A stretch of 64,000 bases of DNA. Origin: a virus. The stretch covers positions 1 to 64,000 of the IMG/VR virus record IMGVR_UViG_3300009550_000010, one strand, 5' to 3'. Position 1 is the first letter of the stretch. Every line of letters starts with the position of its first letter. The translations under genes and the position numbers were made by a program. Below are positions 159-56,151 of the stretch, one piece after another. The notes below the pieces were generated by a model. It searched no databases. It saw nothing but the letters and a program-made list of their open reading frames with translations, and was not told where the DNA came from.

Positions 159-1247
159 CTAACCGATTGCAGGTGCTGTTAGTGCAACTGTTGTAGACTC
201 TGCTGCTGCAAGGTCTAATGGGAAGTTGTGTGCATTTCTTTCATGCATTACTTCCATTCCTAAGTTTGCTCTGTTTAGAACATCGCCCCATGTTGGTACA
301 ATCTTACCACCAGCGTCTACGACAGACTGGTTGAAGTTGAATCCGTTTAGGTTGAATGCCATTGTACAGATACCCATAGAGGTCAACCATACACATACAA
401 CTGGGAATACAGCAAGGAAGAAGTGTAAACTTCTTGAGTTGTTGAATGAAGCATACTGGAAGATAAGTCTACCAAAGTAACCGTGTGCTGCCACGATGTT
501 GTATGTTTCTTCTTCTTGTCCAAATTTATAACCGTAGTTTTGAGACTCAACTTCTGTAGTTTCTCTGATTAGAGATGATGTAACTAAAGAACCGTGCATT
601 GCACTAAAGAGTGATCCCCCAAACATACCTGCTACACCTGCCATGTGGAATGGGTGCATAAGGATGTTATGTTCTGCTTGGAACACAAACATGAAGTTAA
701 ATGTACCTGAGATACCTAAAGGCATACCGTCTGAGAAAGATCCCTGACCGAAAGGGTACACTAAGAATACAGCGAATGCTGCTGACACTGGAGCAGAATA
801 TGCTACACAGATCCATGGTCTCATTCCTAATCTGTATGATAGTTCCCACTGTCTGCCCATGTAAGCAGAGATTCCGATTAGGAAGTGGAAGATTACCAAC
901 TGGTAAGGACCGCCATTGTATAACCATTCATCTACTGTTGCTGCTTCCCAAATTGGGTAGAAGTGTAGACCAATAGCATTAGATGATGGAACAACTGCAC
1001 CAGAGATGATGTTGTTACCATACATGAATGAACCTGCTACAGGTTCTCTGATTCCGTCGATATCGACTGGAGGTGCTGCTATGAAAGCAACGATGAAGCA
1101 TGCTGCTGCTGCGAGCAAACATGGAATCATAAGAGTTCCAAACCAACCAACATAGATTCTGTTGTTTGTGCTTGTTACCCACTCACAGAACTCAGGCCAT
1201 CCCTTTAGGATACCATTTTGTCTGCGTGTAATATTTGAGGTTGTCAT
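159..1247 (-). CDS. psbA: Photosystem II D1 protein
   Basis: This is full-length D1 (362 aa), the photosystem II core subunit that binds pheophytin, QB and the manganese cluster in the thylakoid membrane. Manganese-ligand motifs are visible: the D in [10 protein letters not shown] and the C-terminal HERNAH stretch. The processed tail LDLAAAES is also present, so precursor cleavage after LDLA is possible. The position equivalent to residue 130 is Gln (GRQWELS), as in the low-light D1 form. The ATG at 1247 is chosen because MTTSNITRR matches D1 starts; a TTG 19 codons upstream is unlikely. No intron interrupts it, unlike some cyanophage copies. Phage D1 replaces fast-turning-over host D1 late in infection. 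Confidence 0.97.
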
Positions 1248-1288
1248 TGTAATAAGACGTTTAAATAGGGCTTCAAGGGTAGAAGCGA

Positions 1289-1295
1289 TATTTAT
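1289..1295 (-). promoter_or_regulatory. Late-type promoter ATAAATA upstream of psbA
   Basis: ATAAATA on the minus strand, about 42 bases upstream of the psbA ATG, matches the T4 late promoter core (TATAAATA) recognised by gp55, which is encoded at 57701-58171. A second ATAAATA lies at 1379-1385 and a sigma-70-like TATAAT at 1334-1339 without a clear -35 box. psbA may therefore be transcribed from several sites. Confidence 0.55.
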
Positions 1296-1449
1296 TTCCT
1301 GCAACCCCTCGCTACAGGATAAAGAGACGAAGTATTATACTGCCTATAAAGGTCTCGGTTGAGAGCAGTGTGTGTAGTTATTTATCTTAGTATATCGTAA
1401 CAATTATGTCAACACATGAGTACATATACCTAAATAACGATTATCATTT

Positions 1450-50819: not shown

Positions 50820-51320
50820 TTATACCCAATTTGGTTGTCTGGATGGGTCACGTAGATAATTAGATGCAACCCAAGGTTTGCTGCTAATGTAATTCTTGTA
50901 AGCAGTAAAAGTGTCAATGCTTGTGTCATGTTTAAACTCATCTGGCATTGCTCGTGTAAATTCTACAGGATCAGTGTCTTGTAGTGGAAATATTTGTGTA
51001 CAATGTGCAATAGTTGACTGGCAACTATGTCTCTTACCATATCTATGGGTGTATTCAGTACATAATGCAAGACCATGAAGTATCAACCATGTGTAATTAT
51101 CTTGTGCCCAGACTGTACAAGGGTGATTACGAAATGCACCCTTCTCTGTTTTGTATGGTGTGCCATCAAGTTTAGGTAATGAACCAAACCCATGACCCCA
51201 CTTATCTGATGCAACAATAGAAAGCATTTGACATGTTTCTAGAGGCATTTTTACTATGTGCTTATCAGGTAAGCATTGTGCTGACTTGACAGGATCGGGA
51301 TCGGTTACAAAGATGTTCAT
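50820..51320 (-). CDS. Conserved phage protein, DNA-repair-like (tentative)
   Basis: 166 aa. MNIFVTDPDPVKSAQCLPDK then HIVKMPLETCQMLSIV is a conserved start in many phages (first strand, then DKHxVKMxLE). NHPCTVWAQDNYTWLILHGL, YTHRYGKRHSC and SKPWVASNYLRDPSRQPNW follow. Similar proteins have been labelled pyrimidine-dimer glycosylase-like, which I cannot support from the sequence. ATGA-coupled to clamp gene 45. Confidence 0.65.
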   Translation of the reverse strand: MNIFVTDPDPVKSAQCLPDKHIVKMPLETCQMLSIVASDKWGHGFGSLPKLDGTPYKTEKGAFRNHPCTVWAQDNYTWLILHGLALCTEYTHRYGKRHSCQSTIAHCTQIFPLQDTDPVEFTRAMPDEFKHDTSIDTFTAYKNYISSKPWVASNYLRDPSRQPNWV

Positions 51321-52006
51321 GAATAAACAGAATCAGGTTCTAACGCAATGAAGTAGGTTAGTTTATAATTTGTATTATAGAACCTTGCAAGATTTTTGCA
51401 AGAGATAGCAACAGAATATGAACCAGGTATTAGTTTCATGTTCTCTATCTTGAAGTTGAATGAGAATTCCTTATCAGTATTACCAACAACAATAGCAAAC
51501 TCATTGGAGGTATCGTTCTTACGATCACTTACAACCATCTTGACAACTCCTTCACCACCTACAACAGATAAATCTGGAAGTGATAGTATAGATGCTGACT
51601 TCAATGCTTTAGCAAGTTGATCATCCTGTAGATTGAAAGATACATCTTCGCTAGGAAGGAGCATCTCTTTCTCAGGTGGTGCAACAATTACACTAGGGTC
51701 TGAGAAAAAGTATTTTGATCTTTGAGATGTACCTGATTTGATGTGAGCAAAATTTGGATTGCTAGACACATCAATATCTGGATCTCTATACAACGCAAGT
51801 GTATTGAGAAACTGTGGTAGATCATAGATTGCAAAATCTTTCGGGATATATTCATCTATCTCTGCTTCTGCCAAAACATTTTTCATGACAGATATTGTTC
51901 TTATTTTTCTACCTTCTTTGAATGCCAAAGACTGATTGATAGTCGTGAAGTTCTGAAGAATCTTCAACGTCTTTTCTGATAATTCCATAGGTGGACGAAG
52001 TTTCAT
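51317..52006 (-). CDS. 45: Sliding clamp (gp45)
   Basis: 229 aa. MELSEKTLKILQNFTTINQS, KNVLAEAEIDEYIPKDFAIY and DLPQFLNTLALYRDPDIDVS match T4 gp45, a trimeric ring that tethers gp43 and also works with gp55 in late transcription. AAGGTAA precedes ATG 52006. It is the last T4 core gene of the hli-headed operon. Confidence 0.95.
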   Translation of the reverse strand: MKLRPPMELSEKTLKILQNFTTINQSLAFKEGRKIRTISVMKNVLAEAEIDEYIPKDFAIYDLPQFLNTLALYRDPDIDVSSNPNFAHIKSGTSQRSKYFFSDPSVIVAPPEKEMLLPSEDVSFNLQDDQLAKALKSASILSLPDLSVVGGEGVVKMVVSDRKNDTSNEFAIVVGNTDKEFSFNFKIENMKLIPGSYSVAISCKNLARFYNTNYKLTYFIALEPDSVYS

Positions 52007-52037: not shown

Positions 52038-52343
52038 CTATCCTACATCTTGCAATCTCTGTGCTACTGTCTGTTTTTGAATTGGTGCTACGTCATTTAA
52101 TCCGTTAGCATCAAACCATGGTGCTGTTTCCCAATCGAAACCTTCACCAAATGTATTGTCTGCGTTTGCAACATACCAATGACATGCTGCGTCTGGAATA
52201 TCTACTGCACATACTGCCCAGTCATCTGTCCACTGTGGAACTTGAACCCATATCACAGGTTCTTTCTCAAATGCATATGCTGTGGTGCTTATACCAAACA
52301 GTATTGCAAAAGCGAATGTCCAACATAATATTCTTTTTATCAT
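52038..52343 (-). CDS. Small exported protein
   Basis: 101 aa. MIKRILCWTFAFAILFGIST with TAYAF is a signal peptide (AYA site). The mature part is acidic and Trp-rich (VIWVQVPQWTDDWAVCAVDI, CHWYVANADN) with two Cys that could form a bridge. No family recognised. ATGA overlap with the 34-aa gene. It is probably periplasmic or lumenal. Confidence 0.7.
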   Translation of the reverse strand: MIKRILCWTFAFAILFGISTTAYAFEKEPVIWVQVPQWTDDWAVCAVDIPDAACHWYVANADNTFGEGFDWETAPWFDANGLNDVAPIQKQTVAQRLQDVG

Positions 52344-52444
52344 CCTAATAATCCTACCGACCCTGCTGAAATTCCCACAGTCAGGAAGAATACGAATTCA
52401 AAGATGGGCATATAGCCTGCGTTCTTTAGTAAAAATTGAGTCAT
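52340..52444 (-). CDS. 34-aa membrane micro-protein
   Basis: MTQFLLKNAGYMPIFEFVFF then LTVGISAGSVGLLG: one membrane helix. GAGGAG lies 12 bases upstream of ATG 52444. It is in a row of four such genes behind the hli cluster. A photosystem-like small subunit is possible but there is no motif for it. Confidence 0.6.
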   Translation of the reverse strand: MTQFLLKNAGYMPIFEFVFFLTVGISAGSVGLLG

Positions 52445-52470
52445 TTGTGCTTGTGCTCCTCAGCTTTTGT

Positions 52471-52545
52471 TTATGAAAATACGAACGGTAGTCCGTTTAC
52501 TGCAGTAAATGATACTGCACATGCGAATAAAATTCTAGAAATCAT
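52471..52545 (-). CDS. 24-aa membrane micro-protein
   Basis: MISRILFACAVSFTAVNGLP then FVFS. Almost all apolar. TAATG overlap with the 53-aa gene supports translation, but at 24 residues this is the weakest of the series. Confidence 0.4.
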   Translation of the reverse strand: MISRILFACAVSFTAVNGLPFVFS

Positions 52546-52706
52546 TATGCTCCTTGGTAAACTGGTGTCATTACTCCACCGCCTTCATCATCATCGTCAT
52601 CATCTGATGCTCTCAAAAACAACTCCAATCCTACAAGGAATGCTACTGGATAGAAACACCAGAGTATTGCCATAAAGGGTGAGACGTTTGTTGCTTCAGC
52701 GATCAT
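52545..52706 (-). CDS. 53-aa membrane protein with acidic tail
   Basis: MIAEATNVSPFMAILWCFYP, then VAFLVGLELFLRAS closes one membrane helix, followed by six Asp (DDDDDDEGGG) and MTPVYQGA. The Asp run could bind a metal or another protein. Coupled on both sides (ATGA and TAATG). Small proteins with this tail occur near hli genes in cyanophages, as far as I recall. Confidence 0.65.
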   Translation of the reverse strand: MIAEATNVSPFMAILWCFYPVAFLVGLELFLRASDDDDDDEGGGVMTPVYQGA

Positions 52707-52798
52707 ACAAATACGTTAGTAGATGTGCTTGCAATTACTGCAATCATAAAAATGTATGGTACAACTTTCAATGGTACTGGTTTTAAAATGGATTTCAT
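52703..52798 (-). CDS. 31-aa membrane micro-protein
   Basis: MKSILKPVPLKVVPYIFMIA then VIASTSTNVFV: a basic start and one membrane helix. TAATG and ATGA overlaps on both sides support it. Confidence 0.55.
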   Translation of the reverse strand: MKSILKPVPLKVVPYIFMIAVIASTSTNVFV

Positions 52799-52911
52799 TA
52801 TACAATACCTGGTATAAGTTGACCTGTTGCTAAGTAGATGCCACCGAATAGAACGAATGCAAACATTGCTGGTCTACCGATTGCTCTCTCGAAGATATCT
52901 TTGTTGTTCAT
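52798..52911 (-). CDS. hli: High-light-inducible-like protein, degenerate (37 aa)
   Basis: IFERAIGRPAMFAFVLFGG then IYLATGQLIPGIV. The helix has the Hli pattern, but the E-x-x-N-G-R motif is changed to ERAIGR, so Asn is lost; chlorophyll binding may be weakened. Hli proteins sit in thylakoids and bind chlorophyll and carotenoid to quench excess light. It is the fifth and last of the tandem copies. Confidence 0.78.
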   Translation of the reverse strand: MNNKDIFERAIGRPAMFAFVLFGGIYLATGQLIPGIV

Positions 52912-53054
52912 TAGACAAAACCTGGAATGATTTGTCCTGTTGTTAGGTAAGCACCTAAACCTGCGATTATGCCAAGCATTGCAAATCTACCATTAAGTTT
53001 CTCTGCAAAGAACTTTTCCTTTTCAATTGTTCTTGTTTCTGTTTTGTTTGACAT
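52911..53054 (-). CDS. hli: High-light-inducible protein
   Basis: 47 aa from ATG 53054. FFAEKLNGRFAMLGIIAGLG then AYLTTGQIIPGFV is the full Hli chlorophyll-binding helix (E-x-x-N-G-R-x-A-M). A charged head of 17 residues precedes it. TAATG overlaps join it to both neighbours. Confidence 0.92.
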   Translation of the reverse strand: MSNKTETRTIEKEKFFAEKLNGRFAMLGIIAGLGAYLTTGQIIPGFV

Positions 53055-53161
53055 TAGAATATACCTGGTATAATGTTTCCTGTTGTTGCGTATGAACCTA
53101 CTGCTGCTACGAATCCTAGCATTGCCATCCATCCGTTAAATCTTTCTGCTTCTGGTGTCAT
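53054..53161 (-). CDS. hli: High-light-inducible protein, short
   Basis: 35 aa. AERFNGWMAMLGFVAAVGSY then ATTGNIIPGIF. The Arg of N-G-R is replaced by Trp (FNGWMAM), a change also seen in short phage Hli. AAAGG stands nine bases before ATG 53161; an in-frame ATG at 53206 would add 15 residues but lacks a ribosome site. Confidence 0.87.
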   Translation of the reverse strand: MTPEAERFNGWMAMLGFVAAVGSYATTGNIIPGIF

Positions 53162-53207
53162 GAGTTTGTACCTTTTGTTGATTGTGAATTGTGAAATGAT
53201 CTTCATT

Positions 53208-53324
53208 TTAGAAGAAACCTGGTGCTATCCATCCGAATAGACCATAATTGATTGTGCCGATTACTAATCCCATCATCGCTAAACGACCATTGATTAGTTC
53301 TGCATTCTTCCAGTAGTTCTTCAT
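53208..53324 (-). CDS. hli: High-light-inducible protein
   Basis: 38 aa from ATG 53324. WKNAELINGRLAMMGLVIGT then INYGLFGWIAPGFF. The E-x-I-N-G-R-L-A-M motif is intact; the C-terminal part (FGWIAPGFF) differs from its sisters. TAATG overlap with the copy upstream. Confidence 0.9.
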   Translation of the reverse strand: MKNYWKNAELINGRLAMMGLVIGTINYGLFGWIAPGFF

Positions 53325-53521
53325 TAGAAAATACCTGGAATGATTTGTCCTGTTGTTGCGTAAGCACCTATCAGTGCTACAAATCCAATCATCGCCCAAC
53401 GACCATTGACTTTCTCAGCGTTCTGTGGGTATCCATCGTAAGATGCAGACTCATCGATATAAGGTCTTGTTTCATTTGGAAAAGCGTTTTGTCTTCCGCC
53501 TGATTCATTAGTTACGGTCAT
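53324..53521 (-). CDS. hli: High-light-inducible protein, long form
   Basis: 65 aa. A polar head of about 35 residues (GGRQNAFPNETRPYIDESAS) is followed by NAEKVNGRWAMIGFVALIGA and YATTGQIIPGIF. It is the first gene after the promoter at 53549-53577 and is typical in length for phage Hli. Confidence 0.93.
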   Translation of the reverse strand: MTVTNESGGRQNAFPNETRPYIDESASYDGYPQNAEKVNGRWAMIGFVALIGAYATTGQIIPGIF

Positions 53522-53548: not shown

Positions 53549-53577
53549 ATTATATAGGAAATATAAAACTTTGTAAA
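53549..53577 (-). promoter_or_regulatory. Sigma-70 early promoter for the hli operon
   Basis: TTTACA (53577-53572) and TATAAT (53554-53549) on the minus strand are 17 bases apart. It lies 28 bases before the first hli ATG and probably drives the hli, micro-protein and gp45 genes. Confidence 0.85.
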
Positions 53578-53753: not shown

Positions 53754-53876
53754 CTATTTATTACAATACTGTGTGACCCACCCATGCACATCATTCTTCA
53801 TCACATGTGCAGTCATATGTACACCTTCTATCATTACGATACAACCTAATAACATTGGTACTATAAGTTTATGCAT
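53754..53876 (-). CDS. 40-aa small protein
   Basis: MHKLIVPMLLGCIVMIEGVH then MTAHVMKNDVHGWVTQYCNK. An apolar start of 18 residues could be a membrane helix or signal. It starts inside the T-run of the terminator at 53877-53902, so read-through or its own start is needed. Confidence 0.5.
   Translation of the reverse strand: MHKLIVPMLLGCIVMIEGVHMTAHVMKNDVHGWVTQYCNK
53755..53761 (-). promoter_or_regulatory. Late-type promoter ATAAATA
   Basis: ATAAATA on the minus strand, overlapping the stop of the 40-aa gene and about 22 bases before the 41-aa gene. Confidence 0.45.
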
Positions 53877-53919: not shown

Positions 53920-54291
53920 TTAGAATGTATACTTTACACCTGCCTTTCCAGACCAGTCTACGTCATCAACGTTAGTAGCACCAGAGATCTCTCCGTATAC
54001 TCCAACCTTCTCGTTGATTGCCTTTCCACCACCAAGGTAACCGATTAGTTCAGTGTCACCGAACTTGTCAGCAGACTCAGTGTGAGTAGTTGTAGGACCA
54101 CCAGATACATACCAGTCAATTCCATTAGGAGTTGTACCTTCGTATCCAAGTTGGAATTCCCATGTACCTGATGAATATGAACCATCTGGATATGAACCAC
54201 TTGCTTCTACATTGACGTAAGGTCCAGCAAAAGCTGCTCCAGAGAATAGTAGAGGTGTTGCTGCTAGTGCAGCGATTGTTGATTTAATCAT
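53920..54291 (-). CDS. Predicted outer-membrane beta-barrel protein
   Basis: 123 aa from ATG 54291. A 22-residue signal peptide (MIKSTIAALAATPLLFSGAA, ending FA) precedes an amphipathic beta chain (YVNVEASGSYPDGSYSSGTW, EFQLGYEGTT, ELIGYLGGGKAINEKVGVYG). The chain ends WSGKAGVKYTF: the final Phe is the usual sign for barrel assembly in the outer membrane. Size fits a short barrel of about eight strands (Ail/OmpX-like). A role in changing the host surface is inference. It has its own promoter, leader and terminator. Confidence 0.72.
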   Translation of the reverse strand: MIKSTIAALAATPLLFSGAAFAGPYVNVEASGSYPDGSYSSGTWEFQLGYEGTTPNGIDWYVSGGPTTTHTESADKFGDTELIGYLGGGKAINEKVGVYGEISGATNVDDVDWSGKAGVKYTF

Positions 54292-54317
54292 TTTTGTATT
54301 ATTATCTCGCATGGGTA

Positions 54318-54380
54318 CTAAAAAAACCCTTGCGGATGAAAGACTCCCCGACATGGGAGTCTGTACATACACATAGGGTT
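54318..54380 (-). promoter_or_regulatory. Structured leader or attenuator before the barrel gene
   Basis: On the minus strand AACCCT (54380-54375) pairs with AGGGTT (54330-54325) around an inner 8-bp hairpin AGACTCCC/GGGAGTCT (54362-54341). Seven T follow. It can end transcription from gp46 or act as an attenuator for the late promoter at 54409-54415. Confidence 0.6.
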
Positions 54381-54438: not shown

Positions 54439-56151
54439 TCAAGACCTTAATCTACTGAAACCTTTTTCTTTGTAAAATTCTATACAATTGTGGAATTTAT
54501 CGTATAAACCGTTCTTATGACTGATAATAAAGACATTAGCATCCTTCAACACGAACCGTACAATCTTCAAGAAGTCATCCGTGCCGAACCCATCAAGTGA
54601 GGAATCGAACACTTCATCCATGATCAAAAGGTTAGTCACAATGCTGTTTTTCATTCTTGCAATGTCTCTCCAAGTGAATAAAAGTGCAAGGTCAATTCTC
54701 ATTTTCTCACCTTCAGAGAAAGATGCATAGGAGAATCTCTCATGTACAGGTGTTTGTATTCTTTCGTTGAACTCTTCGTCAAGTGTGAAGTTGATATAGA
54801 AGTCCATTCTCTGTAGGTAATCATTTACCTGTCGATTGATAAGGGGTAGATACTTTCTTATAATGCCACTCTTTACCCCGTCATCGTTGAGTAATAGTTT
54901 TGACTGCTGAAGGTACTCAAAATGTTCTTTCGTCTCTTCTAGGTCTTTTAGTATCTGTTTCAGACTACTCTTATATTCCGATAGTCTTGTAGTCTCTGCA
55001 GATTTGTTCTCAAGTCTGTCAGTTATATCCTGTATTTCTTTTTCTAAATCTTTTCTAAGTTTATTTGCATTTGATATACGAACATTTAACTTAGATGTCT
55101 CAGTGTGTATAGTTCGTATCTCTTTCTGTATCTCTAAGAACTTTTGCTCTCTGACTTCCTCGTCTTTGATGGCAGTTTCTATTTCTTCTAGGTTGTCTTT
55201 ATACTTTGATAAGACAGACTCTAATTCTTTTACCTTTGTTGCACGAAATATTTTGTCTATCTCCTGTGTACAAGTAGGACACTCTAGATGATCTTGAAAG
55301 AATACTAGATTCTCTTGTGATGTAGAACTCTTTGTATTCAGTTGTGTTCTAAATTTATTGAGTTGTTTTATCGTAGTAACCGATTTTGAATATCCATCAA
55401 TCTCTTTCTCCTTTTCAGATACCTTTGCCATAAGGTCATCAACCATCCCTTGATACTTTTCAGAATCTTCATCACAGGTGACGATCTTCTTCTGATTCTT
55501 GGTGATATCATTTTCACCTTCCTCCTCTATCTTACGAATGAATGACTGTTGCATCACTATCTTATCACCAAACGATTCTTTTTTCAACTCTAATATATTG
55601 ATTCTATCCTTTGAATACTTTATCTTCTCTTTCAGTAGATCAGACATACTAGAGAATACCTTGATGTCTAACAGGTCTTCTATAACTTCCCTGCGATGTG
55701 GAGCACTAAGTTGCATAAAAGGAACGAAAGAAGCACTGCCAAGAATGACAATTTGAGTGAAAGATTTGTAGTTGAGTTTGAGTATTTGTCCTTCCAAATA
55801 CTTCTGTTGATCAAGTGCAGATGCTTCTTCATTGAATTTTTTACCGTCTTTATAAATTATAAACACATTCGGTTTTATGCCACGAGTAATTTTATACTGA
55901 GTCGTGTTAATATTGAACTCTATCTCTACTACTGCTTCTCTTTCATTTGTTGTATTGACTAATTGACTCTTACTTATCTTACGAAATGGTTTATTGAATA
56001 AAGAAAAGGTCAGAGCATCGAGTATTGTAGACTTACCCGATCCATTCTGACCTACTATGATACTATCTTTATTCTCATTGAGAGAGAAGTTGATAAATTG
56101 ATTGCCTGATGATAAAAAGTTTTTATAACGAATAGATTTGAATTCAATCAT
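54439..56151 (-). CDS. 46: Recombination endonuclease subunit, SMC-like ATPase (gp46)
   Basis: 570 aa. Walker A GQNGSGKS at residues 34-41, a central coiled coil with the zinc hook LECPTCTQEI, signature ASFSEGEKMRIDLALLF and Walker B NLLIMDEVFDSSLD. With gp47 it forms the Rad50/Mre11-type complex that resects DNA ends for recombination and host DNA breakdown. It overlaps the DUF3110 gene by 8 bases. Confidence 0.95.
   Translation of the reverse strand: MIEFKSIRYKNFLSSGNQFINFSLNENKDSIIVGQNGSGKSTILDALTFSLFNKPFRKISKSQLVNTTNEREAVVEIEFNINTTQYKITRGIKPNVFIIYKDGKKFNEEASALDQQKYLEGQILKLNYKSFTQIVILGSASFVPFMQLSAPHRREVIEDLLDIKVFSSMSDLLKEKIKYSKDRINILELKKESFGDKIVMQQSFIRKIEEEGENDITKNQKKIVTCDEDSEKYQGMVDDLMAKVSEKEKEIDGYSKSVTTIKQLNKFRTQLNTKSSTSQENLVFFQDHLECPTCTQEIDKIFRATKVKELESVLSKYKDNLEEIETAIKDEEVREQKFLEIQKEIRTIHTETSKLNVRISNANKLRKDLEKEIQDITDRLENKSAETTRLSEYKSSLKQILKDLEETKEHFEYLQQSKLLLNDDGVKSGIIRKYLPLINRQVNDYLQRMDFYINFTLDEEFNERIQTPVHERFSYASFSEGEKMRIDLALLFTWRDIARMKNSIVTNLLIMDEVFDSSLDGFGTDDFLKIVRFVLKDANVFIISHKNGLYDKFHNCIEFYKEKGFSRLRS

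Follow-up and report, generated by a model that had tools for sequence, protein, structure and literature searches.

A cyanophage cassette of Hli genes and small membrane proteins shared with the hli islands of Prochlorococcus

Introduction

Few photosynthesis genes are as common in ocean phages as the hli genes. Psb34, a homologue of PRF1 (PMC11189392), binds CP47-containing intermediates, and its arm resembles that of HliA/B (PMC9458560). Psb35, a small protein, stabilises Hlips on CP47 (PMC11449106). Infection by the phage P-HM2 in the light induces the hli genes of the host (PMC5082946), and the hli genes of Prochlorococcus phages, as well as the T4-GC436 and T4-GC438 families, are already known (PMC3037559). 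In the literature consulted, which was mainly open-access, we found no description of the micro-proteins considered below as a host-shared companion module of hli, nor of the peptides m31 and m24 or of the site between genes 46 and 45.

The sequence under study, referred to below as the window, comprises positions 1-64,000 of the IMG/VR record IMGVR_UViG_3300009550_000010, a virus record of 122,499 bases. The virus is a T4-like cyanomyovirus, and its closest annotated relatives infect Prochlorococcus.

Results

The cassette lies at positions 52038-53521 on the minus strand and is transcribed in the order hli1-hli2-hli3-hli4-hli5-m31-m53-m24-m34-p101, that is, five Hli genes, four membrane peptides of 31, 53, 24 and 34 amino acids, and an exported protein of 101 amino acids (Table 1). 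An initial annotation, made from the sequence alone, had described such a run behind a strong promoter and ending at the clamp gene 45. Every reading frame was found at its place on the minus strand, the promoter proved to be a near-consensus sigma-70 site upstream of hli1, and the profile match of gene 45 confirms a sliding clamp. The same annotation had noted one Hli without the Asn of its motif and one without the Arg, which are Hli5 and Hli3, respectively. The overlaps that it reported exist at most junctions: one-nucleotide overlaps (TAATG) join hli1-hli2, hli3-hli4, hli4-hli5, hli5-m31 and m53-m24, and four-nucleotide overlaps (ATGA) join m31-m53 and m34-p101, while gaps of 46, 26 and 31 nt separate hli2 from hli3, m24 from m34, and p101 from gene 45.

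Table 1. Features of the cassette and its surroundings in the window.
Feature	Positions	Strand	Evidence and remarks
psbA	159-1304		
Pyrimidine dimer DNA glycosylase gene	50820-51320	-	PF03013 E 1e-17; directly downstream of gene 45
Gene 45, sliding clamp	51317-52006	-	phrog_223 E 1e-75; directly downstream of the cassette, outside it
p101, exported 101-aa protein	52038-52343	-	phrog_14182 E 7e-55; signal-like leader, two-Cys domain; host relatives
m34, 34-aa single-span protein (EFxFF...G...AG)	52340-52444	-	phrog_17067 E 2e-19; host matches
m24, 24-aa hydrophobic peptide	52471-52545	-	selection; weak host matches; resembles N-terminus of 64-aa host protein
m53, 53-aa single-span protein, tail DDDDDDEGGGVMTPVYQGA	52545-52706	-	phrog_7843 E 3e-25; selection; host matches
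m31, 31-aa membrane peptide (PVPLKVVPYIF...)	52703-52798	-	selection; host homologue after hli4-type gene
hli5, 37 aa	52798-52911	-	phrog_178 E 1e-7; Asn lost, Glu variable, Arg kept
hli4, 47 aa	52911-53054	-	phrog_20629 E 9e-21; full motif
hli3, 35 aa	53054-53161	-	phrog_178 E 1e-19; motif Arg replaced by Trp (NGW); dN/dS 0.07
hli2, 38 aa	53208-53324	-	phrog_178 E 2e-13; full motif in 62/62; end GWIAPGFF
hli1, 65 aa	53324-53521	-	phrog_178 E 3e-28; full motif (E, N, R kept); N-terminal arm ESGGRQNAF
Sigma-70-like promoter TTTACA-17-TATAAT	53549-53577	-	11/12 consensus; 27 bp before hli1
Two small hydrophobic ORFs, 41 and 40 aa	53608-53733, 53754-53876	-	between barrel-like gene and cassette
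Outer-membrane-barrel-like protein gene	53920-54372	-	PF24653; terminator 53903-53882
Gene 46	54439-56151	-	

The interval between genes 46 and 45 holds, on the minus strand, the barrel-like gene (PF24653), two small ORFs and then the cassette. The barrel-like gene has a perfect promoter of its own (TTGACA-17-TATAAT, 54442-54414) and stands ahead of the cassette in many related loci. Relatives of the 41- and 40-aa ORFs occur at the same place in some of the contigs with the cassette at the gene 45 site, and the 40-aa ORF matches phrog_2587. The cassette accounts for every hli gene of the record, five in number, as a search for a second set elsewhere in it found none; a search of the record for the PSI genes psaA/B likewise found none.

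Related loci were fetched from IMG/VR through p101 and m53, and all cassette proteins were then searched in 159 loci. These contain 139 distinct sequences, 120 of them with at least two hli genes, and the order is conserved in about 120 contigs. Among the 120 contigs, hli3 and hli4 were each present in 119, hli1 in 111, hli2 in 93, m34 in 85, m31 in 47, m24 in 33 and hli5 in 24; the counts for m53 (120) and p101 (70) are inflated because most contigs were picked by one of these two. Some contigs (L081, L085, L086 and similar ones) have a relative of p101 but no hli genes within the part covered. In all seven ORF families tested, dN/dS among close pairs was 0.07-0.22 in the true frame as against 0.7-3.2 in shifted frames, and the pooled values, with no restriction to close pairs, were 0.07-0.48. 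Given this frame-specific purifying selection, the conserved order and the homologues in the host described below, we conclude that the ORFs are real genes. Both m31 and m24 are also present in the isolate P-HM2, where they lie between annotated genes and are themselves unannotated.

Across 121 related loci, hli1 is preceded by a sigma-70 site of at least 11/12 consensus in 79%, compared with 1% of shuffles, and no such site was found in related loci upstream of hli2, hli3, hli4, m53, m34 or p101. The cassette appears to be one transcription unit behind a single conserved promoter, at hli1 only. A terminator scan from p101 to gene 45 found none, and the cassette and the clamp gene may be co-transcribed in the gene 46-45 lineage.

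The chlorophyll-binding Glu-Asn-Arg motif is near-invariant in Hli1 and Hli2, and its Arg is kept in 65 of 74 Hli4. With this motif in one predicted transmembrane helix, all three look like regular members of the Hlip family. Hli3 departs from the family at the Arg, a position taken by Trp in all 29 distinct relatives; judging from its match to phrog_178 (E 1e-19), it is a homologous Hlip-family relative with half of the motif. Hli5 departs from it at both Glu and Asn: in 15 distinct sequences, Arg is kept in all, Glu occurs in 5 and Asn in 2, the Asn position being occupied by I, Q or V in 13. Since the Trp of Hli3 and the Arg of Hli5 are invariant in these sets, the half motifs are fixed and do not reflect decay. 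The NGW type is found in host islands too. In chlorophyll a/b-binding proteins, Glu and Arg pair between two helices. By such pairing, the half motifs of Hli3 and Hli5 might be complementary; as Hli3 greatly outnumbers Hli5, it would then need other partners too.

The N-terminal arm of Hli1 reads ESGGRQNxF, or a close variant of it, in 85 of 86 distinct Hli1. When a profile of the arm was compared with 177,635 PDB sequences, the top two matches were Psb34 and PRF1, with weak E-values of 0.16 and 0.22. The likeness seems weak by these values, yet both top matches belong to one PSII family and repeat the published case of HliA/B.

The leader of p101 ends in AYA, which suggests that the protein resides in the lumen or periplasm. 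By hhalign, the leader aligns with m31 (probability 92.5%, E 5e-7; both are short and hydrophobic), suggestive of a relationship between them. In the host, p101 lacks the phage leader and begins with another hydrophobic stretch, a short one, so that the phage p101 appears to be the host domain with a leader of the m31 type fused to it. Structure predictions with 11 and 26 relatives reached a mean pLDDT of 52 and 66, and a fold search of the second model returned no match. The GenBank name carboxylesterase is without support for p101, as there is no Pfam or NCBIfam esterase match and no invariant Ser; among the papers searched, none described this 'carboxylesterase' alongside high-light-inducible genes of cyanophages. 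In several Synechococcus phages (L228-L230, L233) a p101 relative directly follows psbD. Synechococcus phage S-8S56 (L232) has no hli genes but a lone p101 relative immediately behind a gene resembling gene 46, which is the interval that the cassette occupies in the window.

Profiles of m53, m34, m31 and m24 gave no significant match to solved photosystem subunits. Among solved structures, m53 reached PsaJ only at E 0.53, ranked below a rhodopsin, m34 and m31 had no match, and m24 had no photosynthetic one. Several otherwise different small membrane proteins of Prochlorococcus (loci L190-L199) share an m53-like acidic tail, DDDDxDGG, which may be a common docking or sorting tail.

The same four proteins were searched in a sample of 81 genomes from the genus to which a Prochlorococcus genome belongs, and matches were found for m31 in 71, for m34 in 67, for m53 in 65 (some weak and confined to the tail) and for m24 in 16 (weak). 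In seven host loci, an hli4-type gene stands directly before an m53 paralogue, in a frame of about 87 amino acids, with m34 after it; most of the seven also have an hli3 (NGW) gene ahead of this group and an hli2 type behind it. In the host, m31 lies directly against an hli4-type gene, and another m34 is preceded by a 64-aa protein with an m24-like N-terminus. The host therefore also has hli3-hli4, hli4-m31 and m24-m34 as neighbours, and hli4-m53-m34 in succession. The phage cassette thus unites, as one unit and in a partly matching order, Hli types and small membrane proteins that are neighbours in Prochlorococcus. The 64-aa relative of m24 (L217, L219-L222, L227) has a Cys-containing C-terminal half that is absent from the phage form. 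Relatives of p101 were found at 26 loci, in Prochlorococcus and one Synechococcus, although one of the 26 (L160) is itself from a phage, on a contig that also has psbA and hli genes. Of 242 genomes of the class, 23 carry them, and each of these is small (1.5-2.9 Mb).

The gene downstream of the cassette is psbA in 41 contigs and gene 45 in 15, and it is unassignable in 64 because the contigs end too soon. The place beside gene 45 is occupied in P-TIM68, MED4-213 and S-SM2 by cobS and a hypothetical gene. With the cassette beside gene 45 and psbA 51 kb away in the window, the block has moved with respect to the T4-like backbone.

Discussion

It is probable, at roughly 60%, that this single-promoter cassette, shared with the hli islands of the host, protects PSII and helps to rebuild it during infection, with the micro-proteins acting as partners of the Hlips. 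This is suggested by the selection on the reading frames, their conserved order, the one promoter, the homologues and loci in the host and the psbA and psbD neighbours, together with the match of the Hli1 arm (weak in E-value), the published roles of Psb34, Psb35 and HliA/B and the induction of hli genes by P-HM2. Counting against it are the weak E-values of the arm match and the observations that the cassette stands apart from psbA in 15 contigs, that m31, m24 and hli5 are absent from many cassettes, and that no PSII gene was recognised by eye in the host p101 neighbourhoods examined.

The Hlips would pair and, with chlorophyll and carotenoid bound, dissipate energy at PSII that is being assembled or is damaged. 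The arm of Hli1 would dock on the stromal face of CP47, as has been proposed for HliA/B and seen for Psb34, and m53, m34, m31 and m24, as single-span partners, would keep the Hlips stable or in place, a task that Psb35 and Psb34 have in Synechocystis. As for p101, its export would lead to the lumen or periplasm, where it may serve the same PSII turnover. The outcome would be that electron flow continues while the host is dismantled.

It is scarcely credible that the short ORFs arose by chance or are filler without function. They are very short and two of them lack annotation in P-HM2, but purifying selection specific to the frame contradicts this reading, as do the conserved order and the homologues in the host; the initial annotation had named conservation of order and frames among the checks of its proposal, and both are conserved. 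That annotation had also suggested that the peptides may be new small subunits for photosystems or thylakoid remodelling. Because m53, m34, m31 and p101 have homologues in Prochlorococcus, and m24 a weak one, they are proteins shared with the host and no phage inventions. As in other auxiliary genes common to cyanophage and host, a close homologue in the host goes together with purifying selection in the phage, the homologue of m24 being weak. The linkage to photosynthesis holds, both through the 41 contigs with psbA downstream and through the host homologues of the peptides among hli genes, and the part of the proposal that finds no support is that of new photosystem subunits. It is improbable that the micro-proteins are stoichiometric subunits of PSII or PSI, built permanently into a phage-modified photosystem: their single-span size, the linkage to psbA and psbD and the faint match of m53 to PsaJ would agree with it, but no profile significantly matches a solved subunit, their presence varies among phages and among host genomes, and their neighbours in the host are stress-type hli genes, not psb or psa. 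A Hlip partner or assembly factor, in the manner of Psb34 and Psb35, would fit the evidence better.

The peptides might otherwise act on the membrane by remodelling thylakoid or envelope, as holin-like proteins or in host takeover, and merely share a transcript with hli. Small hydrophobic peptides of phages are often of such kinds, and m31, m24 and m34 have no known relatives outside the cassette or hli setting; we find this unlikely, given that homologues reside among hli genes on Prochlorococcus chromosomes of the uninfected type, which is an ill fit for a lysis or takeover protein. As to origin, phage cassettes may have seeded the host islands, the peptides being primarily viral and the host copies residual. 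Islands that bear hli genes are plausible landing sites of phages, and whole adjacencies are common to phage and host. We nevertheless consider this quite improbable, as full-length m53 was counted in most of the 81 genomes (in the 65 with matches, some weak and tail only) and the architecture of p101 and m24 in the host is unlike that of the phage forms, as expected if the genes have long been in the host. Peptides of this length do not allow a firm tree on the direction of transfer.

Under the preferred reading, the Hlip partnership, the cassette amounts to a concrete list of candidate Hlip partners, two of them unannotated even in P-HM2. If Hli1 docks on CP47 together with m53 and m34, a host module for the protection or repair of PSII would have been found through its viral copy. 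A more speculative possibility, which we put forward tentatively, is that m53, m34, m31 and m24 form, with Hli3 (Glu and Asn, no Arg) and Hli5 (Arg, no conserved Glu or Asn), an undescribed Hlip complex of picocyanobacteria that phages have copied whole, in which Hli3 and Hli5 could be hetero-partners through a single Glu-Arg bridge.

Several known systems can be compared with this locus. In P-HM1, P-HM2, MED4-213 and P-SSM4, the hli cluster upstream of psbA/psbD (T4-GC 267/436 hli, 437, 594, 438) has the same order hli1-hli3-hli4-m53-m34-p101, whereas in the window the cassette stands before gene 45, far from psbA, and includes the divergent hli5. The hli islands of Prochlorococcus have the same Hli types, a paralogue of m53, m34, m31 and an N-terminus like that of m24, and their succession agrees in part, but there the genes are spread over several spots, with p101 elsewhere, and in the phage they form one cassette. 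Photosystem small subunits such as PsaJ have size and single span in common with the micro-proteins, without significant sequence match. Psb34 (Ssl1498/Tsl0063) with PRF1, and HliA/B of Synechocystis, appear to resemble Hli1 in the N-terminal arm, though statistically the likeness is weak; in HliA/B the arm precedes a chlorophyll-binding helix (PMC9458560), and in Hli1 it precedes the helix with the motif, whereas Psb34 is without the chlorophyll motif that Hli1 has. Finally, Psb35 (Ssl2148) may serve as a functional model for m53 and m34, the likeness being one of role only.
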